The notes beneath the pieces were generated by a model that searched no databases, was not told the DNA's origin, and was given only the letters and a program-made list of their open reading frames with translations. The translations under genes were made by a program, and so were the position numbers. From Acetatifactor muris (GTDB lineage: Bacteria; Bacillota; Clostridia; Lachnospirales; Lachnospiraceae), in the NCBI GenBank assembly GCA_023664365.1, contig JAMPFR010000014.1, positions 1 through 64,000 on the forward strand: a stretch of 64,000 bases of DNA, in the 5' to 3' direction. Below are positions 8,221 through 55,007 of the stretch, piece by piece (position 1 is the first letter of the stretch; every line of letters begins with the position of its first letter).

Positions 8221-8952
8221 TCAACGCCGCCCTTTGATAATGGGACTTAAAGGCTTGTAAATCAGCATGGTTACCAGGGACACACCGGCGCCCTTAATCA
8301 GATTCATGGGCGCCACGCAGGCTGCCACGAAGCTGACGATGCTGCCCTCCTTCACCAGGCTGTTCACATCCGCCCCAAGAGCCAGCAGATTCTCCAGGGG
8401 TATACCGTAGAGCCTGGAAAAGGCGGGCAGCAGGTAGACCGCGTTAAATGCCGTACCGAAAACGGTGATGCACAGCGTTCCCACCACACAGGCAAGTATG
8501 GCTCCCTTTTTGTTTTTTCGGAAGCTGTAAACCACAGAGGCCGGAAGAATCAGACTGCAGCCCACCGCAAAGTTAGCCAGGTCTCCCACAAAAGCAGTGG
8601 AGGTTCCCTTAAAGAGCAGCTTCAGCAGAATCTTCACAAACTCCATCATCACGCCCGCCGCCGGGCCGAAGGCGAAGGTACCCACCAGAATAGGCAGCTC
8701 ACTGAAATCCAGCTCATAGAAAGCCGGTGCAAAGGGCAGCGGAAACTCAAACAGCATAAGAATGGCTGCAATGGCGGAAAACATACCGATTACGGCGATT
8801 TTCCGGGTACTGAAAACCTTCTCTCTGACGCCGCTCTTTTTCTGCGCCGCCTTTTCCAAAAGCAGCGCCGCCGCGAACAGAGCGGCAATCACCAGCAGAA
8901 ACCCCAGCACATAAAGCAGATTGTCGGCAACACTTTGAAACAGATTGTTCAT
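8221..8952 (-). CDS. ribU: Riboflavin ECF transporter substrate-binding component
   Basis: Integral membrane S component that binds riboflavin and works with a shared energizing module (EcfA, EcfA', EcfT), not encoded in this window. About 243 residues with around six membrane helices. The segment IGMFSAIAAILMLFEFPLPF and the FYELDFSELPILVGTFAFGP loop are typical of RibU. An FMN riboswitch upstream confirms the flavin link. Start ATG at 8952 has GGAGG at good spacing; an upstream in-frame extension runs through the riboswitch terminator and is not coding. Confidence 0.93.
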   Translation of the reverse strand: MNNLFQSVADNLLYVLGFLLVIAALFAAALLLEKAAQKKSGVREKVFSTRKIAVIGMFSAIAAILMLFEFPLPFAPAFYELDFSELPILVGTFAFGPAAGVMMEFVKILLKLLFKGTSTAFVGDLANFAVGCSLILPASVVYSFRKNKKGAILACVVGTLCITVFGTAFNAVYLLPAFSRLYGIPLENLLALGADVNSLVKEGSIVSFVAACVAPMNLIKGAGVSLVTMLIYKPLSPIIKGRR

Positions 8953-9040
8953 CTTCTTTTCCTCCATTTTACGTTTGTCGGAAAATTCTTCGCCTGCGCG
9001 GTGTCGGCCGGACAAACGGGGTTTCCCCTTGCATCCCGAC

Positions 9041-9073
9041 AAAAAGCCCCGAACCATAAAGATTCGGGGCTTT
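9041..9073 (-). terminator. Intrinsic terminator in the ribU leader (riboswitch expression platform)
   Basis: On the minus strand AAAGCCCCGAA pairs with TTCGGGGCTTT across a 9-nt loop, followed by a run of T (9041-9045). It lies between the FMN aptamer and the ribU start, so it is the likely off-switch when FMN binds. Formation of a competing antiterminator was not traced base by base. Confidence 0.85.
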
Positions 9074-9120
9074 ACACACACTGCAGCGGCTTCCGGTTTG
9101 AAAAACAAAACCACAGCCGA

Positions 9121-9304
9121 TACCTTCTTCTCTCATCCAGACTTTACTGTTGGTCCCGGACTTTCACCGAGTCAACCGGGTAAGACCTCCTGTTCCCGCC
9201 GCCTGCGGCGATACGAACAATCGGTGAGACGCACTGCTCCTCACGCTTACCCGGGTCGCGGACTTTACCGCCAGTAGGGAATTGCACCCGACCCCGAAGA
9301 ATTT
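9121..9304 (-). ncRNA. FMN riboswitch (RFN element)
   Basis: Minus-strand sequence carries the conserved RFN blocks in order: TCTTCGGGGTCGGGTGCAAT, CCCTACTGGCGGTAAAGTCC, GCGACCCGGG, a variable stem, GACTCGGTGAAAGTCCGGGA and AGTAAAGTCTGGATGAGAGA. It precedes ribU and is followed by a strong terminator hairpin, which suggests control by premature transcription termination when FMN is abundant. Confidence 0.95.
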
Positions 9305-9326
9305 TCATTCACTTTTTCCAATACAA

Positions 9327-9355
9327 AGACTACCACAACGCTCCCTGAAATGCAA
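9327..9355 (-). promoter_or_regulatory. Promoter of the FMN riboswitch-ribU unit
   Basis: Minus strand -35 TTGCAT and -10 TAGTCT are separated by 17 nt. The predicted start of transcription is about 15 nt upstream of the aptamer, which is the expected arrangement. Confidence 0.6.
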
Positions 9356-9404
9356 GCAGAAACGATTATCCGCCCGAAACCGGTTACCGACATGAAAAGT
9401 TACA

Positions 9405-9542
9405 GGCGCAGCTGACAATCGTTCTCATGCAGGCTGTGCAAGACGTCGGTACTTAGCAGGCGTATTCTGCCTGCTTAGGTATCGCTACGTCGCGCCTCCA
9501 AGCGAAAGCGGGCCTGCATGAAAATGACTGTCAGCTGCCGCC
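9405..9542. repeat. Long nested palindrome (about 138 bp)
   Basis: The outer arms pair as CAGCTGACA...CATGCAGGC with GCCTGCATG...TGTCAGCTG. Inner arms pair as GACGTCGGTACTTAGCAGGC with GCCTGCTTAGGTATCGCTACGTC, around a 7-nt loop. The whole folds as one extended hairpin starting 6 bp after the ABC exporter stop codon. There is no long U-tract on either side. It could be an RNA 3'-end stabiliser, a weak terminator, or a non-autonomous repeat element. Nothing else is visible in this gap before the ribU promoter. Confidence 0.75.
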
Positions 9543-9548
9543 GTCACT

Positions 9549-41091: not shown

Positions 41092-43023
41092 CTATCCCTG
41101 TAATATATTGTTCTTTTCCTTGATGCTGCCATCCAGATAAGCGTTTAACAGCTGCCGCAGATCGGAAATCTGCTCCAGCAGCTCCTCCCCCTTGTCCGTG
41201 TCGGAGATGTCCGCCCTGGCAGGCAGCTTCTCCACCACCCGGATTTCCGGCGTCTGCTGGAAATTTCCGCTCTTAAAGGGCTTATGCTCCGCCAGAATCA
41301 GGCTGTGGGAATCATAAATCAGCGTATAGCCCGCAATTCCCGTGGTTCGCTGATAGGCCTTGGAAATCCCCCCGTCGATGACATACAGCTTGCCGTCCGC
41401 TTTCACCGGGCTTTCGCCGTCTTTGATTTTCACGGGAATATGGCCGTTGATAATATGCCCGCTGTCTTCTCCGATGGAAAACATCCGCAGAATGCTCCGG
41501 CACACGTCCTCCCTTTCCGAAAACCTGTAATAGCTGTTGTAATTCTCCTCCTGCAGAGCCTTATCGTCGATAAAGTACCGCTCAAAAAGCGCCATCTTAT
41601 CCTTGCCGTAAAGAGGAGATTTTGCACCGCACCAGAGATACCACAAAAAGTCCGTGGCATACTCCTCTCTGGAGAAATATGCCGCGTTCACCAGCAGATT
41701 GATTTCATCCAGAAGCGCCTTCCCGCTGTAGCTTCTGCCGTTGATTTCAATGCTCTGCAGCCCTGCGTTTTCATCCATGGGGATACAGCCGTGGAACATC
41801 AGGTTCCCGTTGCAGACCTTGTACATGGCGCCGTGGGACAGCAGGAACCGGATATGCCTCTGCAGCTTTTCGCTGTGGAGGAAGGAGTTTTTGAGAACCT
41901 CCATCAGCCGGGCTTCCTCCGGGGAAAGCGCAGCGGGCTGCCGGGCGTCTACCGTGGGAAAGGCGCCGTCCTTCAGGGAATAGCTTCTGCCGTTTACCGT
42001 AACCCTTCCCGACGCAAAATCCACGCCGGAAAATAAGTCCCGTTCCCCCATCTCCCATTCCCGGTGAGCCGAAATCAGCCGGGACTCCAGCTTCAGTTGA
42101 ATGACGGTTATGGCCTTGTGCATCTGGGCCGCCAGCTTTTCGTCAACAGGGTCATAAATATTATCGTCGTAGGTATGGGGATAATAACCGGCACAGTCGT
42201 CCCCGCCGTAAATTTCCCGGGCAAATACAGCCAGCGCCCGCAGATTCAGCCCGTAGCCATCCTCCAGCAGATCAAAATTATTATATTTGATGGAAATCCG
42301 AATCACATTGGCAATCAGCGCCAGATTCCCGCAGGCCGCCCCAATCCAGGAAATATCATGATTTCCCCACTGAATATCCACGTCGTGACAGTTCATCAGC
42401 TCATCCAGAATAATGTCCGGCCTGGGACCCCGGTCAAAAATATCGCCGATGATATGCAGCCTGTCAATGGCAAGAGACTGAATCAGCCGGCAGAGCGTGG
42501 TAATGAAGCTTCCGGTGATTCCCGTCTCCATAATGGAGCGGATGATTCTGTCAAAATAAACATCCTTATTCACATCATCCGTTACATTCAAAAGCTCATC
42601 CACAATATATCTGAATTTCTCCGGAACACTTTTGCGGACCCTGGAGCGCGTGTACTTTGCAGAAATAGCCTCGCATACCAGAATCAGCCTGTAAATCGTA
42701 AGCTTCTGCCATTCCTCCGTACATTCTCCGTTATCGGAAAGCCGCTTCAGCTCACGCTCCGGATAATAAATCAGATTCACAAGCTCTGTCCGCTCCGCGC
42801 TTGAAACCGTTTTTCCGAACACCTTGTCTATCTTAATTTTAATCATTCCGGACGCACTTTTCAGCATATACAGAAACGCCTCGTATTCGCCGTGCAGATC
42901 GCTGAAAAAATACTCCGTGCCCTTGGGCAGGCTGCGGATTGCCGAAAGATTGATTATTTCGCTTGCAGCGCTTTCAATTGTGGGAAACTTTTCGGAAAGC
43001 AGCTCCAGATACTTCTTATCCAT
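41092..43023 (-). CDS. fbp: Class III fructose-1,6-bisphosphatase
   Basis: 643 residues, as in the Bacillota-specific class III enzymes (B. subtilis YydE/Fbp type). The metallophosphoesterase core is visible: FFSDLHGEYEAF, GDIFDRGPRPD and WGNHDISW. It converts fructose 1,6-bisphosphate to fructose 6-phosphate in gluconeogenesis. It follows the PtsI-like gene by 18 bp, at the end of the sulfo-sugar operon, so it may be co-transcribed with it. ATG with GGAGG upstream. Confidence 0.94.
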   Translation of the reverse strand: MDKKYLELLSEKFPTIESAASEIINLSAIRSLPKGTEYFFSDLHGEYEAFLYMLKSASGMIKIKIDKVFGKTVSSAERTELVNLIYYPERELKRLSDNGECTEEWQKLTIYRLILVCEAISAKYTRSRVRKSVPEKFRYIVDELLNVTDDVNKDVYFDRIIRSIMETGITGSFITTLCRLIQSLAIDRLHIIGDIFDRGPRPDIILDELMNCHDVDIQWGNHDISWIGAACGNLALIANVIRISIKYNNFDLLEDGYGLNLRALAVFAREIYGGDDCAGYYPHTYDDNIYDPVDEKLAAQMHKAITVIQLKLESRLISAHREWEMGERDLFSGVDFASGRVTVNGRSYSLKDGAFPTVDARQPAALSPEEARLMEVLKNSFLHSEKLQRHIRFLLSHGAMYKVCNGNLMFHGCIPMDENAGLQSIEINGRSYSGKALLDEINLLVNAAYFSREEYATDFLWYLWCGAKSPLYGKDKMALFERYFIDDKALQEENYNSYYRFSEREDVCRSILRMFSIGEDSGHIINGHIPVKIKDGESPVKADGKLYVIDGGISKAYQRTTGIAGYTLIYDSHSLILAEHKPFKSGNFQQTPEIRVVEKLPARADISDTDKGEELLEQISDLRQLLNAYLDGSIKEKNNILQG

Positions 43024-43041
43024 ATACCTCCTCCATTTTCG

Positions 43042-44802
43042 TCAGCCGGGATTACCGTTCTCGGCAGAACGTCCCGACAGGTCAAGCTTTCTCACTGCAT
43101 CCCGAACCTTCAGCACAAGCCGGGGAGAAACAGACAACTCGTCAATTCCCATCCGCAGAAAGGTTTCCGTAAGGGTAGTATCCGCCGCCAGTTCGCCGCA
43201 GATTCCGATAGGGATGCCGTTTCCGTGGGCATTCTCCGCACTCATCTCAATCAGGCGCAGAACGGCCTCATGATGAGTGTCCACAAACTGCTCCACGTCA
43301 GGATTCTGCCTGTCGCAGGCCAGGGTGTACTGGGTCAGGTCATTGGTTCCCACGCTGAAAAAGTCAACCAAGGGAGCCAGCCTGTGGCTGATAAGGGCGG
43401 CGGCAGGCGTCTCAATCATAACGCCAAGCTTCACGTTTTCAGAGTATGCAATGCCTTTCTCATTCAGCTCTCGCCTGACTTCAGCACATAGCTTCAGAAT
43501 CCTTTCAAGTTCAATAACACTTGTAATCATAGGGAACAGGATACTCAGGTTTCCATATACGGAAGCCCGATAAAGCGCCCGCAGCTGGGTTTTGAAAATT
43601 TCCGGCCGGGTCAGGCAGATGCGGATTGCCCGAAGGCCCAGCGCCGGATTCTCCTCTTCCTTCAGGTGAAAATAATCAGCCTTCTTATCCGCGCCTATGT
43701 CCAGCGTACGGATGATTACCCGCCTGCCGCCCATAGCCTCCAGCACCCTCCTGTACGCGGCAAGCTGCTGTTCCTCCGTGGGATAATCACTGCTTTCCAT
43801 ATACAGAAATTCACTGCGGAAAAGCCCTATGCCGCCTGCGTCGTTTTCCAGCGCCAGGCTCACGTCACCCACCCCTCCGATATTTGCATATACCTCTGTT
43901 TTCCGCCCGTCAACGGTTCTGTTTTCCCTGCCCTTCAGCTTCTCAAGCAGGCGGCTCTCCTGCCGATACGCCCGCTGCCTTTCCAGAAGCCTTGTGCGAG
44001 TTTCCTCATCAGGATTTACAAAGATTTCACCGGTGCCTCCATCCACAATGGCCTCGTCGCCCTCCCTGATTTTCTCCTGAAACCCGCTGCCCACGGCTAC
44101 CACTGCCGGGATATTCATCTCCCGGGCCAGAATGGCCGTATGAGAACTGACAGACCCCCGCTCCGTCACAATAGCCAGAATCCTGTCCCTGTCAAGAGAC
44201 GCCGTCTCACTGGGCGTCAGGTCGGAGGCGCAGAGGATCCTCTCCCCACGGGAATCCATTCCCGGGGAGTCCGTTCCACCGGAGTCCGTTCCGGGGGAGT
44301 CCGTTCCACCGGAATCCGTTCCAGCGGAATCCGTTCCAGCGGAGTCCATTCCGGGAGAATCCATTCCACGGAGATTACCCGCCAAGCGTTCGGAAATATC
44401 CCTGACATCCGCCGCCCGATCCCTCATATACGCATCCTCCATGGCCGAAAACATCTCCGCAAAATGATCCGCCGCAGCCGAAACCGCGTACTCCGCATTG
44501 ACCTGCCGGCTTTCGATGATATGATACACCGAAGCATTGTAGTCCTCATCCTCCAGCATCATCTGCTGCGCCCGGAAAATCGCCCCGCTGCCTTCACCGG
44601 CTTCCCTGCAGGTCTTCCGATACAGCTCCTCCAGCTGCCGGGCCGCCTGTGCTTCCGCCTGCCGGAAACGCGCCTTTTCCCTCTCTGTTTCCGTTGTATG
44701 AACACACTGCACCGCCGGACTCTTTTTGCGGAACAGCGTAATTCTGCCCACAGCCACCCCGGCATATACCCCTTTGCCCTGAAATATCTGTATTACTCTC
44801 AC
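43042..44802 (-). CDS. PtsI-like phosphoenolpyruvate-protein phosphotransferase with repeat insertion
   Basis: 586 residues with full PtsI architecture. The N-terminal HPr-binding helical region comes first. The phosphohistidine motif GSVSSHTAILARE (His about 221) follows, then the PEP-binding barrel with TNDLTQYTLACDRQNPDV and GICGELA (active Cys). A 40-residue insertion of eight TDSGG/MDSPG-type units lies at about 147-186, between the helical part and the swivelling His domain. The start appears to be GTG with a weak ribosome site. No HPr or EII genes are adjacent; a degenerate HPr is 11 kb away. It may be the general enzyme I or a paralogue serving this operon. Confidence 0.85.
   Translation of the reverse strand: MRVIQIFQGKGVYAGVAVGRITLFRKKSPAVQCVHTTETEREKARFRQAEAQAARQLEELYRKTCREAGEGSGAIFRAQQMMLEDEDYNASVYHIIESRQVNAEYAVSAAADHFAEMFSAMEDAYMRDRAADVRDISERLAGNLRGMDSPGMDSAGTDSAGTDSGGTDSPGTDSGGTDSPGMDSRGERILCASDLTPSETASLDRDRILAIVTERGSVSSHTAILAREMNIPAVVAVGSGFQEKIREGDEAIVDGGTGEIFVNPDEETRTRLLERQRAYRQESRLLEKLKGRENRTVDGRKTEVYANIGGVGDVSLALENDAGGIGLFRSEFLYMESSDYPTEEQQLAAYRRVLEAMGGRRVIIRTLDIGADKKADYFHLKEEENPALGLRAIRICLTRPEIFKTQLRALYRASVYGNLSILFPMITSVIELERILKLCAEVRRELNEKGIAYSENVKLGVMIETPAAALISHRLAPLVDFFSVGTNDLTQYTLACDRQNPDVEQFVDTHHEAVLRLIEMSAENAHGNGIPIGICGELAADTTLTETFLRMGIDELSVSPRLVLKVRDAVRKLDLSGRSAENGNPG
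44251..44370 (-). repeat. Eight-copy 15-bp minisatellite in the PtsI-like gene
   Basis: Eight head-to-tail 15-bp units with plus-strand consensus GGARTCCRTTCCRSS, each encoding five residues (Met/Thr-Asp-Ser-Xaa-Gly). Some units are identical. Unit length keeps the frame, so copy number can vary freely. Confidence 0.93.
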
Positions 44803-44833
44803 CTCTCATCATGAAAATTGCCTCAAATCGGCT

Positions 44834-45733
44834 TCACAGCTGTTTCAAAAGTTCAAAAATCTTATCCTTTTTTGCCAGTCCCCGGGAAAACGCCGTGGCG
44901 CCTCCCGCTGCAGTCCCCAGCTTCAGGGCGTATTCCCGGCCGCCTCTGTCAAAGCCGGCAATAAACCCCGCCACCATGGAGTCACCCGCTCCCACCGAGT
45001 TTTTCACCTCACCCATACAGGCGCCGCACCTGTGGATCCCTCCCCGCTCATCCAACAGCAGGGCGCCGTCGCCCGCCATGGAAATCAGCACATTCCCGGC
45101 CCCCAGCTCACGAAGCTGCTTCCCGTAAAAAATGATTTCTTCCTCTGTATGCAGGCTTACGCCAAACAGATCGCCCAGCTCCTGCCTGTTGGGCTTAACC
45201 AGAAAAGGCCTGTACTTCAGCACCTTCAGCAGCAGCTCCCCCGTGGCGTCAACCGCCGTCCTCACGTTCCTGTGGCACAGGCGCGCGAGAATCCTTTCAT
45301 AAATATCATCCGGCAGGGTATCGGGAATGCTGCCCGCCAGCACCAGGGTATCCCCCGCCTGCAGCGCATCCAGCTTTTCGTACAGCCTGTTTACGGCCTC
45401 CGCAGGAATTCCGGGCCCCTGACCGTTGATTTCCGTCTCCACGCCGGAGCTGATTTTCACGTTGATGCGGGAACAGCCCTCCTCCAGCTCCACAAAATCC
45501 GTTTCAATGCCCATGGCGCTGACGCCGTCCCTGATAGCTCTGCCCGTAAAGCCTGCCACAAAGCCCAGAGCCCTCGAGGGAACACCCAGCTCCGCCAGCA
45601 CCACGGAAACGTTGATTCCCTTGCCGCCGAAAAAAAGTTCCTCAGATTGGGAACGGTTTATGCTGCCTGCCTTTAATTCTTCAATCCGGACAAAATAATC
45701 AATGGCAGGATTGAACGTCACCGTATAAACCAT
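44834..45733 (-). CDS. PfkB-family sugar-phosphate kinase (1-phosphofructokinase-like)
   Basis: 299 residues of the ribokinase/PfkB fold. It starts MVYTVTFNPAIDYFVRIEEL, has GGKGINVSVVLAELG and the anion-hole signature NSVGAGDSMVAGFIAG with catalytic Asp. Overall it is closest to FruK, but FruK, LacC and PfkB 6-phosphofructokinase are hard to separate by eye. No fructose PTS permease is nearby. In this operon it could phosphorylate fructose 6-phosphate made by the transaldolase. ATG with GGAGG upstream. Confidence 0.88.
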   Translation of the reverse strand: MVYTVTFNPAIDYFVRIEELKAGSINRSQSEELFFGGKGINVSVVLAELGVPSRALGFVAGFTGRAIRDGVSAMGIETDFVELEEGCSRINVKISSGVETEINGQGPGIPAEAVNRLYEKLDALQAGDTLVLAGSIPDTLPDDIYERILARLCHRNVRTAVDATGELLLKVLKYRPFLVKPNRQELGDLFGVSLHTEEEIIFYGKQLRELGAGNVLISMAGDGALLLDERGGIHRCGACMGEVKNSVGAGDSMVAGFIAGFDRGGREYALKLGTAAGGATAFSRGLAKKDKIFELLKQL

Positions 45734-45756: not shown

Positions 45757-46878
45757 CTATAACACGGAGCTTACAAACGCCGCCACGGCGCCGATGTAAT
45801 TTTCCTTTTCCGCCAGGGCAGAATAGAGAATCCTCCCTCCGTCATACCTGGCGTCATACTTCCGGCAATCGGCAATCAGCTTTTCCCGGATGTCTCTGTC
45901 CCGAAACAGACTTCCGAACAGAAGTACCCGGTTGGGCGCAAGAATTGTCATGGAATTGACGATCACTCTGGCAAACAGGTCGATGGCCTCCTCAAAAACC
46001 TGCCCCCGGCCTTCCGCGGCAGCCCGTCGATAAACGTCCCCAAAGGCCTCCGCTGCAAAAGGGATCTCCCCGGACAGAGCCTGATAGGACACCTTGGTCT
46101 CCAGACAGCCCCGTCTCCCGCAGCTGCAAAGCTTTCCATCCCTTTCAACGATATAATGTCCCAGCTCCGCCGCCTTTCCATGACGTCCCTCATACAGCTG
46201 GTTGTCGATGACGATGGTGCTTCCCACGCCGGGACCCCATTTGATAATCAAAAGATTATCATATTCCCTCCCCATGCCGTACAGCAGCTCCGCCCTGGCA
46301 AACGCATTCACGTTATTCTCCAGCCACACAGGCAGCCCCAGTCTGCCCTTCAGCACATCGCAGACCCCAACCTCTCTATTCCACACATTGTATGCCCGGA
46401 CGCTGACGCCCCTTTCCCTGTCCACCACACCGGGCACGGCAACACTGACGCCTGCCAGCTTCGGAACCACCTGCTTCTGCCGCTCTTCCATTTCATTGCA
46501 CAAATCTGCAAGCTGAGCCAGAAACACCTCCGGCTCAACCTGCAGATTTGTAGCGACAGTCTGCTGCTCCAGGCACTGGCCCCGCATATTGGAGACGGAA
46601 AGAAAGGTGTCCTTAGATTCGATATTGATTGTAATTATATAATAACAATCATAATTTATATCTACAAGTACTTTTTTTCTTCCCGCCCCCGTAGACCGGG
46701 TATCAATGCCCAGCTCCAGCAGCAGCCTCTTTTCCAGAAGCTCACTGCACAGCAGCGTCACCGCCGCCGGAGTAAGCCCCGTTATATCCGCAATATCCTT
46801 TCTGGACATAGCGCCCCGCTGGGCAAGACAATTCAATATAGAAGAGAGATTTCTCTTTTTCACCTGAACCATGTTCAT
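45757..46878 (-). CDS. ROK-family transcriptional regulator of the sulfo-sugar operon
   Basis: About 373 residues: an N-terminal winged helix (GAMSRKDIADITGLTPAAVT) and a ROK sugar-kinase-like domain. The latter has the zinc-type cluster CSCGRRGCLE, so it is a NagC/XylR-type repressor rather than a kinase. It overlaps or abuts the isomerase gene. Three starts are possible (46893, 46878, 46872); the first sits too close to GAGG, so one of the later two is favoured. An AT-rich inverted repeat over the operon promoter is its likely target, and a pathway sugar its likely inducer. Confidence 0.85.
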   Translation of the reverse strand: MNMVQVKKRNLSSILNCLAQRGAMSRKDIADITGLTPAAVTLLCSELLEKRLLLELGIDTRSTGAGRKKVLVDINYDCYYIITINIESKDTFLSVSNMRGQCLEQQTVATNLQVEPEVFLAQLADLCNEMEERQKQVVPKLAGVSVAVPGVVDRERGVSVRAYNVWNREVGVCDVLKGRLGLPVWLENNVNAFARAELLYGMGREYDNLLIIKWGPGVGSTIVIDNQLYEGRHGKAAELGHYIVERDGKLCSCGRRGCLETKVSYQALSGEIPFAAEAFGDVYRRAAAEGRGQVFEEAIDLFARVIVNSMTILAPNRVLLFGSLFRDRDIREKLIADCRKYDARYDGGRILYSALAEKENYIGAVAAFVSSVL

Positions 46879-46880
46879 TC

Positions 46881-48221
46881 CTAATATCTGCATACCTCTA
46901 TATTAAGCATATTTCCCAAAATTTCAAGTTCTTTTTCCACATCGCCGTAAATTACAACAAAGTGAGGCTCCCAGCCGTCCAGTACGCTCCGCTTCACAAT
47001 GCCCGCCGCATTGCGCGCTGTCTTTACCACTACGGACGTCCCCTCAAACTGCTTGGGTTTATCCAGGGCTTCTCCGCCTGTCAGAAAGAAGCGGAAGGAA
47101 CCGTCAGCCTTTCGCCCGATCCGAAACACCGTCACTGCCTCGGCAGCCCTGCAGCCGAAATCCAAAGTGGGTCCGATTTTCCGGTTGCAATGAACCCCCA
47201 CCTCCGCTCCGGTGTCCTCCCTTGCTAGGGAACAGGCGGCTGTTCCGCAGTGCCAGAAGGTAATGGTATTTTCCCTTTCGTCCATAGATACCGGATCTCC
47301 GAAAAACACAGGACTTCCTGTCAGTTCCATGCCCAGATACATGGACAGGGCGCCGTAGGCGTCCGCCTCACAGCTTGCCGCAACCCCCAGATCATTGAGC
47401 ATAGCCAGCACCGCGCATACGGGGGTTCCGAAGGCTGTAAAGAAATCCGGCCAACACCTGGAAGCCAGAGCGCCGATATGATTCTCCGACACATACTCCC
47501 TGTACGCCCTGTACAGTCTGGCAAAGTCCACACGATTCCGCTCCGGCATCCTTTCCAGGCCCCGCATACGCTCCGCCCCGTCCTTCAGATAATCAGCCAC
47601 GTCCTCTTCGGTGTAGCTCCCGGCCCTGTCAATCAGTTCCCTGGCCTCCACAGATTCCAGTCTCACACCAAAGACCTTCAGCATATCGGCATCCAGCCCC
47701 CGCCCAAACCCAAAGCCCTGGGGCGTATGCCCTACCGCCGCCAGCTTCAGCCCCTGCATGGAAAGCTTAAGCTTTGCTGCCCGCACTGCCGCAGTTACTC
47801 CGGCAATGACTGCTTCCTCCTCCGGGCCGCCGAACACATAGGTAAAGGGCTCCTCTCGAAAGGCCCTGATGACATTGGCTGCGGAATAGGCTCCTGTCAG
47901 AGAGTTCAGCCGCAGTCTCCCTCCGTCAATCACCGGCTCCCGCAAAGTCCATAGAAGAATGGGACAATCGAATTTGGCAAGCACCTCGGAGGCATAAGCG
48001 GCATTTGCAAAGGTGACATTCTGCAATACAATCAAATCCGGATCCAGTCCCGCCGTAAATTTCTCCAGCAGCTCCAGAGACAGCAGCATCTCCTCCGGCA
48101 CTGCCGTATTCTCCTCCAGGGAGCGCAGCAGCGCCGCTGACTTTTCAAACTCCTTCTGCGCACTTTCCAGGTGAAAGGTAGGCACCCCAATAGGTATATA
48201 TGCAACCTGAAACTTCTTCAT
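46881..48221 (-). CDS. L-fucose/arabinose-isomerase-like protein, probable sulfoquinovose isomerase
   Basis: About 446 residues with the two-domain fold of L-fucose and L-arabinose isomerases; the N-terminal half ends near NVTFANAAYASEVLAKFDCP and the C-terminal half holds RCWPDFFTAFGTPVCAVLAM, CEADAYGALSMYLGM and VGVHCNRKIGP. Glu and Asp residues for metal binding are present in these blocks. In the operon it is the best candidate to turn sulfoquinovose into 6-deoxy-6-sulfofructose. The DUF4867 protein is the other candidate. ATG at 48221 has GGAGG upstream. Confidence 0.8.
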   Translation of the reverse strand: MKKFQVAYIPIGVPTFHLESAQKEFEKSAALLRSLEENTAVPEEMLLSLELLEKFTAGLDPDLIVLQNVTFANAAYASEVLAKFDCPILLWTLREPVIDGGRLRLNSLTGAYSAANVIRAFREEPFTYVFGGPEEEAVIAGVTAAVRAAKLKLSMQGLKLAAVGHTPQGFGFGRGLDADMLKVFGVRLESVEARELIDRAGSYTEEDVADYLKDGAERMRGLERMPERNRVDFARLYRAYREYVSENHIGALASRCWPDFFTAFGTPVCAVLAMLNDLGVAASCEADAYGALSMYLGMELTGSPVFFGDPVSMDERENTITFWHCGTAACSLAREDTGAEVGVHCNRKIGPTLDFGCRAAEAVTVFRIGRKADGSFRFFLTGGEALDKPKQFEGTSVVVKTARNAAGIVKRSVLDGWEPHFVVIYGDVEKELEILGNMLNIEVCRY

Positions 48222-48258
48222 AAGCTTTGATTCCTCCAAATAGTTTGTTTATGATTTG

Positions 48259-49065
48259 TCACTTGACCAGCAGAGAAACGCCGGAGATAAAAAGCAGTAT
48301 GTAGGTCAGGATCAGAAATACCTTCCGGCTCATGACCCTGTAAAGCTTTCCGCCCGTAAACATTCCTCCCAGAAAAAAGGGGAGCGCAATGCCCAGTGTC
48401 TTAAGATTGCTTCCCGTCCACAGCCCCGCCCGGATATCTCCCGCCAGGATAATAGAATTCAACAGGATCCAGACCGTGGAAATAGTAGCCCGAAATCTGG
48501 TCTTATCGTCGATCCTTCCGGCCAGATAGCTGATAAGCAGCGGCCCGCCGGATACAAAAATGCCGTGGACGATACCCGCAGCTCCCAGCAGGGCATAATT
48601 TAAAGCCTCCCGGAGTCCCTTCCTTCCAGGCTCCGGCCCGGCGGCAGCCTGCCCTTCCTCCTGTCCGGGCTTTTGCGCACACCCCGGAGCGGACGCCTGC
48701 TTCCGCTCCGCCGCTATCTTCTGATAAAATCCCTGGAGGGCACACAGCAGGACAAAGACCCCCAGCGCTTTATAAAGCGCTGCCTCCCTGCCTGACAACA
48801 GCAGCCTGATCCCCATGCCGGCCAGAATACCCGGCGTCATGACCAGCACGATCTTCTTAAGCTCCTTCCGGTCTACCGCCCTGAAATTTCCCAGGAACAC
48901 ATAGATCCCCGATAAGAGTCCCAGTACATTCAGCACAGGCTTTGCCGTATCGTAGCCCACCAGCATGATACTGAAGGGCATAGCCAGAATCGTCCCGGCA
49001 AAGCCGGTGATCCCCTGTATGATATTGGCGAGAAGAATCACAATATAGAACAGCAGCTCCTTCAT
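48259..49065 (-). CDS. TauE/SafE-family exporter, probable sulfonate efflux
   Basis: 268 residues with about eight membrane helices in two repeats. The first repeat has GITGFAGTILAMPFSIMLVG and the second AAGIVHGIFVSGGPLLISYL, the paired glycine-rich motifs of TauE/SafE proteins. This family exports small organosulfonates, so here it likely releases 2,3-dihydroxypropane-1-sulfonate (DHPS), the end product of fermentative sulfoglycolysis. A cytosolic Ala/Gly/Pro-rich loop of about 35 residues lies between the repeats. ATG with AGGAG upstream. Confidence 0.85.
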   Translation of the reverse strand: MKELLFYIVILLANIIQGITGFAGTILAMPFSIMLVGYDTAKPVLNVLGLLSGIYVFLGNFRAVDRKELKKIVLVMTPGILAGMGIRLLLSGREAALYKALGVFVLLCALQGFYQKIAAERKQASAPGCAQKPGQEEGQAAAGPEPGRKGLREALNYALLGAAGIVHGIFVSGGPLLISYLAGRIDDKTRFRATISTVWILLNSIILAGDIRAGLWTGSNLKTLGIALPFFLGGMFTGGKLYRVMSRKVFLILTYILLFISGVSLLVK

Positions 49066-49077
49066 TTTCCCATGCTC

Positions 49078-49761
49078 CTAAAAATACAATTCCTTATTCT
49101 CGCCCAGAATGCCCGGAAAAGCCCCCTGCCGAATCAGGGGCTCCCGCTCCGGGTGGGCGATTACCCACTTATTCCGCCCAAGCAGCAGCGCGCCCTCCCT
49201 GTCTTCCTTGTTTTCCGCCGTTCTCTCCTCCGGACTGAAAGGCCCGTTGGTCCCCCGGGGAAGAATGACGATTCCTTTAAAACCTTCCTCCCGCACCCTT
49301 AGGGGCGAAAGGTGCAGAGTGGTCTGGTACATTTCCACGGCAGTTCCCCGCTTTAGAAAGAAAACCCTGGCATCCCGGTTGTCATAGTGGTTATCCTGTA
49401 TCTCCCAGGTATGTCCCAGCACCAGCATAAAGTCTGTCACCGCCACGTTTATCTCACTGCCCTTATGGTATTCAAAGCCGTTGTAGGTACTGTTTCTTCC
49501 GTTGCAGTACCCGGCCTGTATGGGCATTCCCCCATAGAGCTGTTTTTGTATCGCGCCTGTTACTTTAAGGCTTTCCAGTCCGGCCTCCGAAGCCACATAC
49601 ATGTTCCCTGTCTCCGGGATCTCCGTATGCTCCTCCATATACCGAAGGGCTTCCTCAAAGTCATAGCCTGCAAGGACACGCCCATAGGAAGCAAACTCCT
49701 CCGCTTCCACAGGATATATCTTTACATCGTTCACCTGATTCAAATGTTCCAGTAATTCCAC
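49078..49761 (-). CDS. DUF4867 (cupin-like) protein of the sulfo-sugar operon
   Basis: 227 residues, starting at GTG with GGGAGGTG 9 nt upstream. The middle has cupin-like strands with candidate metal ligands: NGFEYHKGSEINVAV, LGHTWEIQDNHYDN and VFFLKRGTAVEMYQTTLHLS. DUF4867 genes recur in reported Bacillota sulfo-TAL clusters (as sftX), with no settled function in my memory. It could be an isomerase, a mutarotase-like helper, or a sensor. It begins 4 bp after the reductase stop. Confidence 0.8.
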   Translation of the reverse strand: MELLEHLNQVNDVKIYPVEAEEFASYGRVLAGYDFEEALRYMEEHTEIPETGNMYVASEAGLESLKVTGAIQKQLYGGMPIQAGYCNGRNSTYNGFEYHKGSEINVAVTDFMLVLGHTWEIQDNHYDNRDARVFFLKRGTAVEMYQTTLHLSPLRVREEGFKGIVILPRGTNGPFSPEERTAENKEDREGALLLGRNKWVIAHPEREPLIRQGAFPGILGENKELYF

Positions 49762-49764
49762 TTG

Positions 49765-50625
49765 TCAGCACCTCCCGCGAACCACCTTGACTGTTGCGCA
49801 GAAATCCTCTTTTGCATAGCCTGCCTCCATGGCCTCATCGTAAACCCGCTTTGCGTTAGCTTCTCCGGGCATTGCAACGCCGCACTCCTCTGCCAGCTTC
49901 ATACAGATATTCACGTCCTTGGACATATTCTCCACGGAGAAAGCCGTGGTATAGTCCTCTCTGAAAATAGGATCCTTCTTGGAATCCAGATAGAAATTCT
50001 GCCCGCCGCCGTAGGAAATCGCCTGAGCAAAGGTCAGGATATCGATCCCGTTGGCCGCCGCCAGAACAGAAGTCTCGTTCACCCCGTTCTGAATCTGGGA
50101 GACCAGGGCGTTATGGCAGATTTTCATAACCAGTCCTTTCCCGTTATCTCCCATGCGGATCACATTTTCTCCCATGTACAGCAGGATGAACCTTATTTTC
50201 TCATAAACAGCCTCATCGCCGCCCACATAAATGCCAAGCTTCCCCGCTATGGCCGCCGGCTTGCTCTTCACCACCGGCGCATCCAGGAACTGCGCCCCCG
50301 TCTGCTTTACCTCTCTGGAAATTTCCACGGAAACCCCCGGGTCAATGGTACTCATATCGATACAGATCTTTGTGCTGTCCAGAACGGGCAGCACCTCCCT
50401 GTATACGCTTCTGGAATGCTCCGACTTTGGCACCATGGAAATAATCACATCCGCATTCTCAGCCACCTCTCTTGAACTGCCGCAGGCAATCCCGCCCTTG
50501 GCTTCCAGCAGCTTCACCTTCTCCTCCACAAAGTCAAAGACATAAACCTTATCGTCATGCTTGTTGATAATATTTTCGCACATGGATTCCCCCATGATGC
50601 CCAGACCGATAAATCCGATTTTCAT
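49765..50625 (-). CDS. sftF: 3-sulfolactaldehyde reductase, YihU-like
   Basis: 286 residues of the beta-hydroxyacid dehydrogenase family. The NAD-binding site is MKIGFIGLGIMGESM; the substrate motif DAPVVKSKPAAIAGKLGIYV and the catalytic Lys in GNGKGLVMKICHNALVSQ are in place. E. coli YihU, which reduces 3-sulfolactaldehyde to DHPS with NADH, belongs to the same family. In this operon the reaction would re-oxidise NADH in anaerobic growth. 3-Hydroxyisobutyrate dehydrogenase is the generic alternative, but context argues against it. ATG at 50625 has GGAGG upstream. Confidence 0.85.
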   Translation of the reverse strand: MKIGFIGLGIMGESMCENIINKHDDKVYVFDFVEEKVKLLEAKGGIACGSSREVAENADVIISMVPKSEHSRSVYREVLPVLDSTKICIDMSTIDPGVSVEISREVKQTGAQFLDAPVVKSKPAAIAGKLGIYVGGDEAVYEKIRFILLYMGENVIRMGDNGKGLVMKICHNALVSQIQNGVNETSVLAAANGIDILTFAQAISYGGGQNFYLDSKKDPIFREDYTTAFSVENMSKDVNICMKLAEECGVAMPGEANAKRVYDEAMEAGYAKEDFCATVKVVRGRC

Positions 50626-50652
50626 GCTTCTGCTTCCTCCCATTCGTTTTAG

Positions 50653-51339
50653 TCATTCCACAGCAGTATGATCCCATGCGTCAATAAATGTCCCGATGCC
50701 CTGGGTGGTATAGGCATGTTTCATACTGTCTCTGTATACGTCAAGCCCCGCGGTGACAATGTCCGCTCCCGCCAGGGCGCAGTCTACAAACTGCTTCGGG
50801 GTGCGCACCGCCGCGCAGATGATCTCTGTCCTTCCGTAAAACCCGTAGTTTTTGTAGATCTCCACAATATTTCTGATATACTCTCGGCAGTCCTCGCCGT
50901 TGGCCTCCTTCCAGCCGATGAAGGGAGATACGAATTTAGAGCCGTTCTTTGCAGGCAGAATTGCCTGTGCAGGCGAGAAAATCAGCGTTACATTGGTACG
51001 GATCCCTTTGCCTTCCAGCTTCCTCGCCGCAGTGACGCCCGCCTCCGTAGCGGGAATCTTGATGACAAAATTGGAGCTGAGCGCCGCAATCTTCTCCGCC
51101 TCTGCAATCATGTCCTCCGCCTTGTCCAGGTGGGGATTGATTTCCACAGATACAGGGAATTTCTCACTGCCCTCCAGGCCTTCCGCCTTCACCCAGTCTG
51201 CAATATCCGTAACCGCCTTCAAAAAAGGCTTTCCGCTCAGCATGATATGCTTGGGGTTCGTGGTGACGCCGTCGATACCGAAGGTCTCGTAGGCGTATCT
51301 GATCTCATCCATTTTTGCACTGTCCAGAAAATATTTCAT
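50653..51339 (-). CDS. sftT: 6-deoxy-6-sulfofructose transaldolase
   Basis: 228 residues of the short FSA/TalC-type transaldolase family. The Schiff-base Lys is at position 94 in FVIKIPATEAG; GVTTNPKHIMLSG marks the N-terminal strand and NVTLIFSPAQAI the next conserved block. In the sulfo-TAL route it moves the three-carbon ketol unit from sulfofructose to glyceraldehyde 3-phosphate, giving fructose 6-phosphate and 3-sulfolactaldehyde. Specificity is inferred from the operon, since plain fructose-6-phosphate aldolases look alike. ATG with AAAGGAG upstream. Confidence 0.85.
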   Translation of the reverse strand: MKYFLDSAKMDEIRYAYETFGIDGVTTNPKHIMLSGKPFLKAVTDIADWVKAEGLEGSEKFPVSVEINPHLDKAEDMIAEAEKIAALSSNFVIKIPATEAGVTAARKLEGKGIRTNVTLIFSPAQAILPAKNGSKFVSPFIGWKEANGEDCREYIRNIVEIYKNYGFYGRTEIICAAVRTPKQFVDCALAGADIVTAGLDVYRDSMKHAYTTQGIGTFIDAWDHTAVE

Positions 51340-51415
51340 GTTGTTTCTCCTTTTCTCCCGATATTTATTTCCTTATTTCTTTATCTGTTTCTTTATTTCT
51401 TCAGATTTCTGTTAT

Positions 51416-52900
51416 TTATTTCACTTTCATTTTCAGGGCATTTTCCCTTTTCCACAGACTGTCGTAGGAATAGCCTGTAACCTTCTCGCAGACTGCTATT
51501 TCCTCCGCTGTGGCCTCGCTGGTATCCTCGCCCTTCCTGCGGGCGATCTCTTTTCTGATGATTTCAAACTCCGGCTTATTCATGGGAAACAGCTTTGCAA
51601 ATACAAGGGTCGCCGCCATCAGTACCACCGGCGCAAACACATAGATCCCGGCGATTCCCCTCTGGGTGGCTGCCGTCTGCCTGCCGCCCGCCGCCGCAAC
51701 CGCCTCGTCATAGCCTGCCAGCGCAAGCATGACGCCGATAACCGCGCTGGAAAGGCCGGTGGCGATCTTACGCACAAAGGTAGCCATGGCGGAACAGGTG
51801 CCCGGGCGGTTGATGGAGGTGATCAGTTCATCCACATCCGCCATATCTGCAAGGATGGCGTAAATACTGGTGGAGGAGCCTGCCATCCCTAAGCCGATGA
51901 CAAAGGACAGCGCCAGGATAACTGCAAAGCTGGCTCCCTCATGGGAAAAGAACAGCATGAGAAGGGTAGCTGCCATACGCACCGGGAATCCCAGCAAAAT
52001 AGGGAACTTTTTGGAGGTCTTAGCCATAATGGGCGTAAACAGAATCGTCCCCACGAACTGAGACAGCAGGATAACAGCCATCAGGTAGGTAAAACGCCCG
52101 CCCCCGTAGGCATTCAGCACATCATCCACATAATATACCGCCAGACCCGTAACAAAGTCCGCCGCCCCCTGCCCACAGAGGAAAATGGCGATAAACAGCC
52201 TGAAGGACCTGCTCTTATAGACTGTCAGCGACTGTACAAAGCTCTCCTTAAACCCGATTTTTACAGGCTCCTTCTGTCTCTCCCAGGTGCCGAAAAAGGT
52301 TACAAGGATCACAATCAGAAAGATAACGCCGAAGATCACCGCCACTGTCAGGTAGGCTGACGCATCCGTATTGTCCTTGATGAGCAGCGTGGGGATCAGC
52401 CCCGCCAGAATAGCGCCGAATGTGGAAAACATCATGCGGACGCCTGAAAATTTGCTCCGCACCGTGTAGTCCTCCACCATGTCGGGCAGCAGCGCGTTGT
52501 AGGGCACCATGACAATGGTAAAACCTGTGGAAAACAGCATATACATCAACATATAGAAGAAATACTGGCCGCCCGCGGCATTCCCCGGGAAGGTGATCCA
52601 CATCAGCACAAAGGTAACCGCGGAAACAACGCTCCCTATCAATATGTACAGACGCTTGGGCCCGAGCCCGGATCTGGTGCGGTCACAGATGTTGCCCATC
52701 AGCGGATCTGTAACCGCGTCCCATATTTTTCCGATGAGCGGTATGGTTCCTGCCAGCGCCGTAGACATCCCTAAGGATTTTGTCAGAAACACCGTGAAAA
52801 AGGTGCTGATAATGACAAACGCGCCGCCCCCGTAAATATCCGCAAAGCCATAGGCGCATTTAGACCACAGACTCTGCTCTCTCTTTCCCTTCTCTTTCAT
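51416..52900 (-). CDS. GPH-family sugar transporter, probable sulfoquinovose/glycoside uptake
   Basis: 494 residues, about 12 membrane helices. The glycoside-pentoside-hexuronide family is shown by KCAYGFADIYGGGAFVIIST, IGKIWDAVTDPLMGNICDRT and RSGLGPKRLYILIG. GPH carriers are cation symporters for sugars and glycosides, and they appear in other sulfoquinovose clusters. It lies between the GH31 gene (13 bp upstream) and the transaldolase. ATG with AAAGGG upstream. Confidence 0.87.
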   Translation of the reverse strand: MKEKGKREQSLWSKCAYGFADIYGGGAFVIISTFFTVFLTKSLGMSTALAGTIPLIGKIWDAVTDPLMGNICDRTRSGLGPKRLYILIGSVVSAVTFVLMWITFPGNAAGGQYFFYMLMYMLFSTGFTIVMVPYNALLPDMVEDYTVRSKFSGVRMMFSTFGAILAGLIPTLLIKDNTDASAYLTVAVIFGVIFLIVILVTFFGTWERQKEPVKIGFKESFVQSLTVYKSRSFRLFIAIFLCGQGAADFVTGLAVYYVDDVLNAYGGGRFTYLMAVILLSQFVGTILFTPIMAKTSKKFPILLGFPVRMAATLLMLFFSHEGASFAVILALSFVIGLGMAGSSTSIYAILADMADVDELITSINRPGTCSAMATFVRKIATGLSSAVIGVMLALAGYDEAVAAAGGRQTAATQRGIAGIYVFAPVVLMAATLVFAKLFPMNKPEFEIIRKEIARRKGEDTSEATAEEIAVCEKVTGYSYDSLWKRENALKMKVK

Positions 52901-52913
52901 ACATTCACCCTTT

Positions 52914-54878
52914 CTACACTATTTTTATCAGTTCCTCGAACCGCCTGCTGTCCCTGCGGACAAACACCGGCGGCTGTCCTATGGGCGCGGATACCGTGAC
53001 GGAGCCGCCCCCGTACTCCTCCTTTGTAAACAGGTGTACCCACCTGTCCCGGGGCAGATAACATTCTCTCTGCTTTGCCCCTTCCTGCAGCACCGGCGCC
53101 ACCAGAATATCTCTGCCCAGAAGGTATGCGCTTTTGTCTGTGTACAGCGGCTCCTCGTCATAGTGGTAAAACAGCGGACGCATCACAGGAATCCCCCGCT
53201 TTACCGCTTCTTCCACGCATTCCTGCAGATAGCCCTTCAGCCTCCGGTGCAGCTCCGTACACTCGGCAAGGTGCTTTAACAGCTCCCCGTCGTCAGCAAA
53301 CTGTACATTGTTCACCGGCTGGTTGCCCTCATGGCTGCGGAACAGAGGTGAAAAAGCATTCATCTCCTCCCAGCGCATCAGAAGCTCCCTGCTGCGGCGC
53401 ATATGCATAATGGTAGTATATCCCCCCACATCGGAATGCGTGATGCCATATCCGCTCATGGCAAGGGAAAGGGTGGCGGGAATCACAGAGGGCAGTCCGT
53501 CGTCCACGGACCAGTCCACATGCTGATCTCCCGTCCACATCATGTCCGAATTGGCAATGGTTCCCGTGTGCCCGGCCCGGGTAAAGAAAAATATCTCCCC
53601 CTCCATGCCGCACTCACGGATGGCCTCCCGGTTCAGCTGCGCCCAGATGGCCGGCCAGGTATTATGTACCACCGCAGGATCCGCCCCGTTATGCAGCACA
53701 CAGTCCACCGGAAGATACTCTCCGAAATCCGCCATCCAACCGCTCATGCCGATACCGATCATATTTTCCCGGATCAGCTTCTTATACCAGCGGTATGCGT
53801 CAGGATTTGTGAAATCCACCATAGCTGCGGGAAAGGTGGTGATGGTCACCAGATAATCTTTTCCCTCCCTGTCCTTGACACAATATCCCTTCCCGGCGGC
53901 CTCCCGGTAAATGTCCTTCTCAATAGCCAGGAACGGATTAATGTAGCCCAGAAAGCGGACTCCCTGCTCCCGCCATTTTTTAATTTTCTCCGGCAATTCC
54001 GGATATAACTCCCCGTCAAACCGCCAGTTCCACATCACCTGATAGCCGAAGCCGGTGCGCCTGCACCCGGACCAGTCCTGACACCAGACGCCGTTGACCT
54101 TTACACCTGCATCAAAGGCTTTTTGAAGCTTTCCCTCCACCGCCTCCGGCCCCTCCTGAACCGCCAGGATGCCGCCGTCATATATCCAGTCGGGCAGGCT
54201 TCGCTGCCGTCCAAGCAAATCCGACAGTTCTTCGGACACCTCCTCAAAGCTGCTCCCCCAGCCCACCGTAAACCTGGGCGGCTCCTGGAGCCGCAGGGTA
54301 ATCTTTGAAGGATTCCGGAAATCAAATTCGGCGTAGGCGCTGGTATCTGCGTGCAGAAAATACTTTCGACTGGATACAAACGTGGGCTGCGCATAATAGG
54401 ATTCATACTTTTGAAAGGGCAAAATCCTTTCCGGATGCTTTCCTGTCAGCTTCTCCCGAATGATTTTCCCGGAGATCCGTCTGCTGTTCTGATGCTCCGC
54501 CACCCAGATACGCACCAGCTCACCCTTCAGATCCAGCTTGGAATATGTCTCCCCACAGCCGTAAATGTGCTCCCGGCCGGTGGGAAAGGTGACCCGAAAG
54601 CGGTTTATCCCGTCAGGCACGGCGCCCTTCCAGCTTACCCTCAGCCGGTTTTCCTTCTGAACCAGGCACAGCCGGACTTCCTGCCCTGTAATGGGATCAT
54701 GATAAACCAAATCACAGCCATCCGCCGTCTCCGCCGTTTCCTGCAGCTCCAGCCGCCTGAACCCGCTGTTCTTCTGCTTATATTCAAAGCTGCCCCGCTT
54801 CATGGAAAAACGGTTCTCTCCAAAGCCCACTTCCAGCTCCGTGTGCCTGAAGCACCCCGGGTCAAATATCTCACCCAT
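52914..54878 (-). CDS. sftG: GH31 sulfoquinovosidase (YihQ-like)
   Basis: 654 residues with no signal peptide, so it acts on imported sulfoquinovosyl glycerol or similar glycosides. The nucleophile Asp384 lies in WMADFGEYLP and acid/base Asp451 in WTGDQHVDW. Long stretches resemble E. coli YihQ (QDWSG, FGYQVMWNW, NPDAYRWYKKLI, HSDVGGYTT). As I recall the YihQ residue numbers, a constant offset of 21 maps its sulfonate-site residues Q262, Q288, W304 and Y508 to Q241, Q267, W283 and Y487 here. R301 maps to Gln280, a substitution. First gene of the operon; ATG with GGGGGG upstream. Confidence 0.88.
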   Translation of the reverse strand: MGEIFDPGCFRHTELEVGFGENRFSMKRGSFEYKQKNSGFRRLELQETAETADGCDLVYHDPITGQEVRLCLVQKENRLRVSWKGAVPDGINRFRVTFPTGREHIYGCGETYSKLDLKGELVRIWVAEHQNSRRISGKIIREKLTGKHPERILPFQKYESYYAQPTFVSSRKYFLHADTSAYAEFDFRNPSKITLRLQEPPRFTVGWGSSFEEVSEELSDLLGRQRSLPDWIYDGGILAVQEGPEAVEGKLQKAFDAGVKVNGVWCQDWSGCRRTGFGYQVMWNWRFDGELYPELPEKIKKWREQGVRFLGYINPFLAIEKDIYREAAGKGYCVKDREGKDYLVTITTFPAAMVDFTNPDAYRWYKKLIRENMIGIGMSGWMADFGEYLPVDCVLHNGADPAVVHNTWPAIWAQLNREAIRECGMEGEIFFFTRAGHTGTIANSDMMWTGDQHVDWSVDDGLPSVIPATLSLAMSGYGITHSDVGGYTTIMHMRRSRELLMRWEEMNAFSPLFRSHEGNQPVNNVQFADDGELLKHLAECTELHRRLKGYLQECVEEAVKRGIPVMRPLFYHYDEEPLYTDKSAYLLGRDILVAPVLQEGAKQRECYLPRDRWVHLFTKEEYGGGSVTVSAPIGQPPVFVRRDSRRFEELIKIV

Positions 54879-54914
54879 TCACATCCCCCCTCTCTTGCAT
54901 AGATTATGTCTGAT

Positions 54915-54962
54915 TAATTAATTGTTTTAATTAATTATATACTATAGGCCTGCCTATTGCAA
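54915..54962 (-). promoter_or_regulatory. Sulfo-sugar operon promoter and probable ROK operator
   Basis: Minus strand -35 TTGCAA (54957-54962) and -10 TATAAT (54934-54939) are separated by 17 nt. A perfect inverted repeat, TAATTAATT / AATTAATTA with a 5-nt centre (54915-54937), overlaps the -10 and the start region. ROK repressors favour AT-rich inverted repeats, and the only regulator in the operon is ROK-type. Confidence 0.8.
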
Positions 54963-54971
54963 GTAAAAAGT

Positions 54972-55007
54972 AAAAAAGGGGAACTGCACCTCATCGTACA
55001 ATTCCCC
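54972..55007 (-). terminator. Intrinsic terminator after the DUF1700-DUF4097 gene
   Basis: Minus strand GGGGAATTG pairs with CAGTTCCCC across a 12-nt loop, followed by TTTTTTAC. It lies between the stop of the upstream gene and the sulfo-sugar promoter, isolating the two units. Confidence 0.85.

Follow-up and report, generated by a model that had tools for sequence, protein, structure and literature searches.

Plants supply sulfoquinovose (SQ), a very abundant sulfosugar; fermented to 2,3-dihydroxypropane-1-sulfonate (DHPS), it feeds sulfite-respiring, H2S-making gut bacteria (PMC8397734). A route through a 6-deoxy-6-sulfofructose transaldolase (SF-TAL), called the sulfo-TAL or sulfo-SFT pathway, is already published for Bacillota. 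The clusters of Eubacterium rectale and Clostridium symbiosum include SftT, SftI, SftR, SftX (DUF4867), the exporter SftE and a GH31 glycosidase (PMC11968277, PMC8397734). Intestinal strains of both species express the pathway on SQ (PMC8397734), and 3-sulfolactaldehyde (SLA) is reduced to DHPS, unlike in Bacilli, which oxidize SLA to sulfolactate with SlaB (PMC11489063). The SF-TAL core recurs in the bifurcated transketolase/transaldolase pathway of Faecalicatena and in the HpfG-extended sulfo-TAL pathway of Enterococcus gilvus (PMC11659671, PMC11489063). Here, we analyze a 64,000-nucleotide stretch of Acetatifactor muris DNA (the window; positions 1 to 64,000 of contig JAMPFR010000014.1, which is contig C55 of a 3.86-Mb, 98% complete assembly, GCA_023664365.1). 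Eight of its genes very likely form a sulfo-TAL operon under its own ROK repressor that would convert a sulfosugar to DHPS. The window operon is a good member of the published pathway; what sets it apart is the GH31 enzyme at its entry and a candidate operator in front of it.

All eight genes are intact, lie on the minus strand and encode the domains that the first-pass annotation had named for them. They run from the GH31 glycosidase gene at 54,878 through those for a GPH symporter, the transaldolase, the reductase, the DUF4867 protein, a TauE exporter and the isomerase to the ROK regulator gene, which ends at 45,757 (Table 1). The gaps of 3-76 bp in that annotation hold at six of the seven junctions (successively 13, 76, 9, 3, 12 and 19 bp); at the seventh, 13 bp are shared by the isomerase and ROK genes, and the range 46872-54878 given for the set holds seven genes, leaving the ROK gene (45757-46893) almost wholly outside. 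Since the same gene set recurs among 80 loci retrieved by similarity to the window DUF4867 protein, in identical order in L005-L008, L011, L032 and L080, the operon is not a product of chance. A chance gathering of domains was rejected in view of the conserved gene order and residues.

The same pathway genes occur in C. symbiosum and many Lachnospiraceae. Identity to the proteins of C. symbiosum ATCC 14940 (locus L063) amounts to 80% for the transaldolase, 75% for the reductase, 68% for the isomerase and 57% for TauE, but 41% for the GH31 enzyme, which belongs to another clade. Gene order differs as well, and where the window has a GPH symporter, L063 has TctABC-like genes (TctA, TctB and a weak TctC below cut-off). 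Unlike the E. rectale cluster, which is said to contain a glycerol kinase (PMC11968277), the window operon has none. The SF-TAL and DUF4867 proteins are 63% and 51% identical to their counterparts in the sulfo-TAL system of Bacillus megaterium/aryabhattai, whereas the enzyme acting on SLA in the window is a reductase.

The transaldolase carries the pathway assignment. Among solved structures, it is matched best by the B. megaterium SF-TAL (8bc3, E 6e-87; 63% identity over 221 residues), whose catalytic triad and W-A-R sulfonate motif are named in PMC11659671. In the alignment, D6, E66, K94, N116, S138, W143, A177 and R179 are present, and the same catalytic and W/A/R residues are found in 63 of 63 cluster transaldolases (window included, picked by similarity to the window enzyme), where the assignment of alignment columns to W, A and R is our own reading. 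The three sulfonate positions read R/S/K in E. coli FsaA and FsaB and R/S/R in the second transaldolase of the genome. In a tree of 42 rows, built by a quick method with weakly resolved inner branches and a long-branch warning at the FsaA/FsaB side, the window enzyme groups with the B. megaterium SF-TAL, C. symbiosum and the cluster enzymes, while FsaA/FsaB and the housekeeping enzyme of the genus, which resembles fructose-6-phosphate aldolase (FSA), stand apart. Residues and tree led us to reject an FSA and support the sulfo-TAL pathway proposed at first; for the transaldolase, the clustering with FSA that the first-pass annotation had named as refuting was not observed.

The other core steps are represented in the cluster by a PF02952-type SQ isomerase and an SLA reductase. 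The isomerase matches a single NCBIfam model, SftI (NF048012; 396 bits, below the cut-off of 700), and its residues E291/D315/H426 are invariant in 24 of 24 sequences and align to E. coli FucI E337/D361/H528, which we take to be metal ligands of that enzyme. PDB sequences searched with the isomerase and its profile gave no match. The reductase shares its family (PF03446/PF14833) and presumed reaction with YihU; it is the only PF14833 match of the genome. The earlier label "YihU-like" is loose, as the reductase is 29% identical to YihU and 31% to GarR, hence no closer to the former, scores 157 bits against the NF012005 cut-off of 348 and has the loop VVKSKP where YihU has VGRTSA (Arg123), so that it is not a YihU orthologue. 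All 68 cluster reductases examined have the loop VKS(K/R)P and the string DAPVVKS; the loop is absent from YihU and GarR. A hydroxyisobutyrate dehydrogenase (HIBADH) was rejected on identity and loop only.

DUF4867 is recognized with 243 bits (PF16161) and is 51% identical to B. megaterium 9gyy. The 2His-2Glu metal site E97, H99, E103 and H150, kept in 82 of 82 sequences, is described in PMC11968277, where the function is still left open. Its nearest relatives in the named genome collection come from two Lachnospiraceae-type bins (87% and 86%), one labelled Acetatifactor. Some clusters (e.g., L164, L166, L203 and L204) lack the gene; since it is present somewhere in nine of nine genomes searched, this says nothing on its dispensability. 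In G130, G257, G436 and G439, it is missing from the cluster and present elsewhere in the genome, where it might stand in for SftX. The A. muris genome itself has a second DUF4867 gene outside the operon, near a contig end (G000:C11:76-696). The transporters are assigned by family, the exporter to TauE/SafE (PF01925, 75 bits) and the importer to GPH (PF13347, 226 bits; TIGR00792, 217 bits, below the cut-off of 231).

An SftR-type reductase would make DHPS the secreted product, as the first-pass annotation had predicted. The genome has two glycyl-radical-enzyme (PF02901) matches, a pyruvate formate-lyase (775 bits, below the cut-off of 994) and a short N-terminal fragment whose scanned frame gave no match. 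No HpfG or HpsG was recognized among these two, and DHPS is therefore the likely end product, which gives that prediction indirect support. Unlike in the Faecalicatena and E. gilvus clusters, no transketolase or Hpf genes lie among the window genes scanned (35312-63310; transketolases were not searched genome-wide), and an extended or bifurcated pathway was set aside on this ground.

The entry enzyme departs from the characterized sulfoquinovosidases. The GH31 protein scores 775 bits against NF007746 (PRK10426, named alpha-glucosidase; cut-off 553), which we take to be the YihQ model, and its best PDB relative is YihQ (5aed, E 2.6e-190). The GH31 enzyme of a cultured strain, Pseudobutyrivibrio ruminis DSM 9787 (L049), is 62% identical to it. 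D384 and D451 occupy the places of YihQ D405 and the presumed acid/base D472. The former is named catalytic in PMC11968277. Furthermore, Q241, Q267, W283 and Y487 are kept at YihQ Q262, Q288, W304 and Y508, as in the related SftG, for which PMC11968277 gives a kcat/KM of 1.65e5 per M per s. At YihQ Arg301, in a gapless part of the alignment (FGYQVMWNW vs FGKRVMWNW), the window enzyme has Gln280. R301, W304 and Y508 are the residues that presumably bind the sulfonate, and work of Speciale from 2016 and Abayakoon from 2018 is said to cover the role of R301 in this pocket. The description as a YihQ-like GH31 enzyme thus stands for family, catalytic Asp pair and the Trp/Tyr positions and fails at the pocket Arg. 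All five solved sequences displayed, representing four enzymes (YihQ twice, 8r56, SftG 6pnr and 5ohs), have Arg; a sixth match, 5ohy, with a score equal to 5ohs, was not among them.

At the Arg301 position, 105 GH31 sequences (the window, YihQ and two overlapping locus sets with some duplicates) have 57 Gln, 47 Arg and one His, and the Trp304 and Tyr508 equivalents are kept in all 57 Gln sequences. In a tree of 55 rows, from which the Arg301 column was left out, the Arg sequences (26 rows) are united on one side of a branch with support 100, and another branch (94) unites 27 of the Gln sequences. The exception is L178, a long-branched Gln sequence from close to the start of a contig, which joins the Arg side. 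The root is unsure because the outgroup, L179, is a degenerate long branch. With L178 left out, 56 Gln-clade sequences differ from 47 Arg sequences at 22 positions (93% or more vs 6% or less). These include runs at 126-138 (inserted Asn131 and Lys138), 155-161 and 346-353 and His453, two residues past the aligned acid/base Asp451. The Gln enzymes are a deep clade for which no structure is solved and which stays linked to sulfoquinovose operons.

Across the order, a GH31 match at E<=1e-100 is present in 34 of 392 genomes. Flanks were fetched for 33 of 35 GH31 places (the window and one fragment left out), yielding 16 Gln, 16 Arg and one degenerate gene. Transaldolase, isomerase or reductase genes adjoin 14 of the 16 genes of either type; the two Gln exceptions are L178 and L174, whose 5.7-kb contig carries part of an isomerase gene. 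The degenerate gene also lacks Trp and Tyr and has no pathway genes beside it. Gln loci include a GPH symporter (at least 500 bits) in 19 of 39 and 5 of 16 cases, Arg loci in none of 29 and none of 16, L063 being the only Arg locus annotated. The transaldolase tree (84 rows) shows six switches of GH31 type and the isomerase tree (88 rows) four, of which the starred branches alone force three in each. Because of these switches, the two types seem to be modules that can replace each other within a single pathway. We read the Gln-clade enzyme as a probable sulfoquinovosidase with a rebuilt pocket or as an enzyme for another SQ conjugate.

Two further loci were observed in this survey. One sulfoglycolytic locus of a Pseudobutyrivibrio ruminis bin (L038) contains a GH31 gene of each type (566-2542 and 8567-10573). 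At L179:9526-11487 (G213), the GH31 relative has a degenerate pocket (QRHCQ) and an altered acid/base region (GYHH); no sulfoquinovose genes were found nearby, and it is perhaps decaying or repurposed.

The regulatory region holds the second distinguishing feature. The ROK protein (PF00480, 129 bits; HTH_24 at 21.0 bits, just below the cut-off of 21.9) likely has its operator in the perfect palindrome ATTAATTAA-N5-TTAATTAAT, which overlaps the -10 box by 2 bases and ends 34 bp before the GH31 start. At up to two mismatches, it is a single match in the 3.86-Mb genome; a pattern read backward as control also gave one match, as expected of a repeat-like sequence. Among 96 isomerase-bearing loci, 63 contain it, with 88 sites (20 exact). 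Of these, 73 lie at most 200 b from the start of a listed gene, 38 in front of a transaldolase, 32 in front of a GH31 and 3 in front of a ROK gene. No site was found in 39 control loci (262,653 bases) or in five rounds of Markov copies. In a comparison of the 90 loci that extend 200 b or more upstream, counting a site anywhere in the locus, it was present in 58 of 64 ROK-bearing vs 5 of 26 ROK-lacking loci (34 vs 2 at one mismatch, 62 vs 11 at three).

With a conserved site, the regulon can be searched for. Among 61 genomes of the genus, five sites occur at up to one mismatch. Four of them precede, by 17-34 b, the GH31 reading frame in a sulfo-TAL operon, namely that of the window and those of G036, G436 and G439, the last two being new. 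The fifth (L202:8612 = G443:C8:20611, one mismatch) lies between genes for an AraC regulator and a GlcNAc-2-epimerase-family protein, beyond which a solute-binding-protein gene follows. The surrounding 18 kb contain no sulfo-TAL genes, and this site may be due to chance or mark a related regulon. Taking enzyme and site together, we see an even chance that the Gln enzymes form a second clade of enzymes hydrolysing sulfoquinovosides, distinct in mechanism and lacking the pocket Arg, swapped among sulfo-TAL operons and often accompanied by a GPH symporter, that rumen and gut Clostridia split SQ conjugates between the two types, and that the ROK operator is common to Clostridia and a spirochaete-labelled bin.

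A course of events can be proposed by homology to the published pathway and from the residues described above. The GPH symporter would import SQ or a sulfoquinovoside such as SQ-glycerol, from which the GH31 enzyme, with its catalytic acids, Trp and Tyr kept, would free SQ through a sulfonate pocket rebuilt around Gln280. DUF4867 may open the sugar ring, and SftI would convert SQ to 6-deoxy-6-sulfofructose. The SF-transaldolase would then move three carbons to glyceraldehyde-3-phosphate, giving fructose-6-phosphate and SLA, which SftR would reduce to DHPS with regeneration of NAD+ and TauE would export. Until a sulfosugar or derivative binds, the ROK protein would keep the promoter shut at the palindrome.

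Table 1. Features of the operon and its surroundings in the window.
Feature	Position	Strand	Size	Assignment
GH31 glycosidase	52914..54878	-	654 aa	Gln clade ("QQQWY"); presumed sulfoquinovoside hydrolase
GPH/MFS_2 sugar-cation symporter	51416..52900	-	494 aa	Presumed importer of sulfoquinovose or its glycoside
SF-transaldolase	50653..51339	-	228 aa	8bc3 (BmSF-TAL) match, catalytic and sulfonate residues, tree
3-sulfolactaldehyde reductase	49765..50643	-	292 aa	SftR type (NAD-type)
DUF4867 metal cupin SftX/SqvB	49078..49761	-	227 aa	Proposed sugar ring opener/mutarotase
TauE/SafE exporter	48259..49065	-	268 aa	Presumed DHPS exporter (SftE)
Sulfoquinovose isomerase (SftI/SqvD)	46881..48239	-	452 aa	TTG start
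ROK-family regulator	45757..46893	-	378 aa	Presumed operon repressor
Palindrome ATTAATTAA-N5-TTAATTAAT	54913..54935	.	23 bp	Candidate ROK operator
Promoter-like TTGCAA-17-TATAAT	54934..54962	-		Consensus match alone
Terminator-like stem	54978..55007	-	12 pairs + T run	Consensus match alone
fruK-ptsI-fbp	41092..45733	-		Directly downstream of the ROK gene

Other explanations of the locus concern the pathway, the entry enzyme and the extent of the operon. Judged by Pfam and NCBIfam alone, which return TAL_FSA, HIBADH (189 bits, below cut-off) and a weak Fucose_iso_C below cut-off, the genes could be an ordinary sugar-phosphate set of FSA-like, HIBADH-like and fucose-isomerase-like enzymes, the sulfosugar being a domain-level illusion. 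The W/A/R residues, found throughout the cluster sequences, absent from FsaA/FsaB and matched in part by the second transaldolase, the place of the window enzyme in the transaldolase tree, SftI as the sole NCBIfam match of the isomerase and the cluster held in common with C. symbiosum leave this explanation hardly credible. A single operon running on through fruK-ptsI-fbp, which would couple SQ use to the phosphotransferase system (PTS), is suggested by tight gaps (23, 31 and 18 bp), by ptsI being the only PF05524 match of the genome and by L003 and L004, which keep fruK-ptsI behind the ROK gene. Yet fruK and ptsI occur together without sulfo genes in three of nine congener stretches (L117, L119 and L123), because of which they are probably older neighbours, and the examined stretches of L005-L008, L032 and L080 have sulfo genes without fruK-ptsI. 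This separate occurrence led us to reject fruK-ptsI-fbp as pathway parts, and we regard the longer operon as improbable, though transcription may still read through into these genes today.

Somewhat more weight, short of making it likely, goes to the possibility that the Gln-type enzyme cleaves another glycoside, either an SQ conjugate with a different aglycone or a sugar without sulfonate, and that the operon lives on a mixture. The change of Arg301 to Gln, the 21 further clade-separating positions in their runs along the sequence, the coexistence of both types in L038 and the restriction of the GPH symporter (at least 500 bits) to Gln-type loci fit this reading. The retained Trp and Tyr equivalents, the pathway genes beside most Gln-type genes in the order-level sample and the exchange of the two types on the transaldolase tree, as expected of equivalents, speak for hydrolysis of a sulfoquinovoside instead. 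The sulfo-TAL operon with a ROK-controlled sulfoquinovosidase remains the interpretation that we prefer, and several points weigh against it. The Arg301 exchange itself could mean a different glycoside, the scores for the SftI and SLA-reductase models stay under their curated cut-offs, and the isomerase-FucI alignment is weak (hhalign E 0.0044, probability 8%). As to the operator, 15 of the 88 sites have no listed gene start within 200 b, 6 of 64 ROK-bearing loci lack a site, 5 of 26 ROK-lacking loci have one, and the Fisher p-value of 7e-11 for this association is only indicative because the loci are related.

Within the genus, SF-TAL is present only in the window genome and G036 among 49 genomes (own included, several incomplete); G436 and G439, outside this sample, have it as well. 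The operon is therefore an accessory trait. The GC content of the cluster (0.539 vs 0.527 for the window) gives no signal of recent transfer. An exact empty site was sought in congeners and none could be demonstrated, as the upstream neighbours differ among them; in the window, the terminator-like stem probably ends the upstream transcription unit. The attribute spore-forming in the first-pass annotation finds a footing in two Spo0A C-terminal domain matches in the genome and no further basis here. Sulfo-TAL clusters or parts of them were also seen in L011, L019 and L020, bins labelled Spirochaetia and Treponemataceae (DUF4867 63-67% identical to that of the window), which represent cross-phylum transfer or mis-binned contigs. 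In the downstream genes, a 15-bp tandem array (8.2 copies, 44246-44373) lies inside ptsI (43042-44802, minus strand) and encodes a TDSxG-like pentapeptide repeat in the enzyme I linker between domain matches 8-129 and 188-258. Shorter or different versions occur in the relatives L003 and L004, and none was found in the inspected stretch of nine congener enzyme I frames (L117-L125).

The pathway is known, and novelty lies at the entry enzyme, so far as the literature search shows. This search, covering titles and the beginnings of abstracts, returned neither a GH31 clade without this Arg nor a ROK site for SQ genes, which does not establish absence from print; to this extent, the Gln-clade GH31 enzyme is new as a variant. 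The closest idea found in print concerns a subset of GH188 enzymes in which a sulfonate residue is altered (PMC11465081). The GH31 gene yihQ serves as a survey marker, and most rumen yihQ amplicons of one assay fall on a long YihQ branch, with some genomes carrying two yihQ copies (PMC13219744). This branch may be the Gln clade. The candidate operator makes the regulon of the operon testable. In the order-level sample, 16 of 33 yihQ-like genes differ at a presumed sulfonate-pocket residue, and annotation and primer-based ecology would therefore rest partly on an uncharacterized enzyme.

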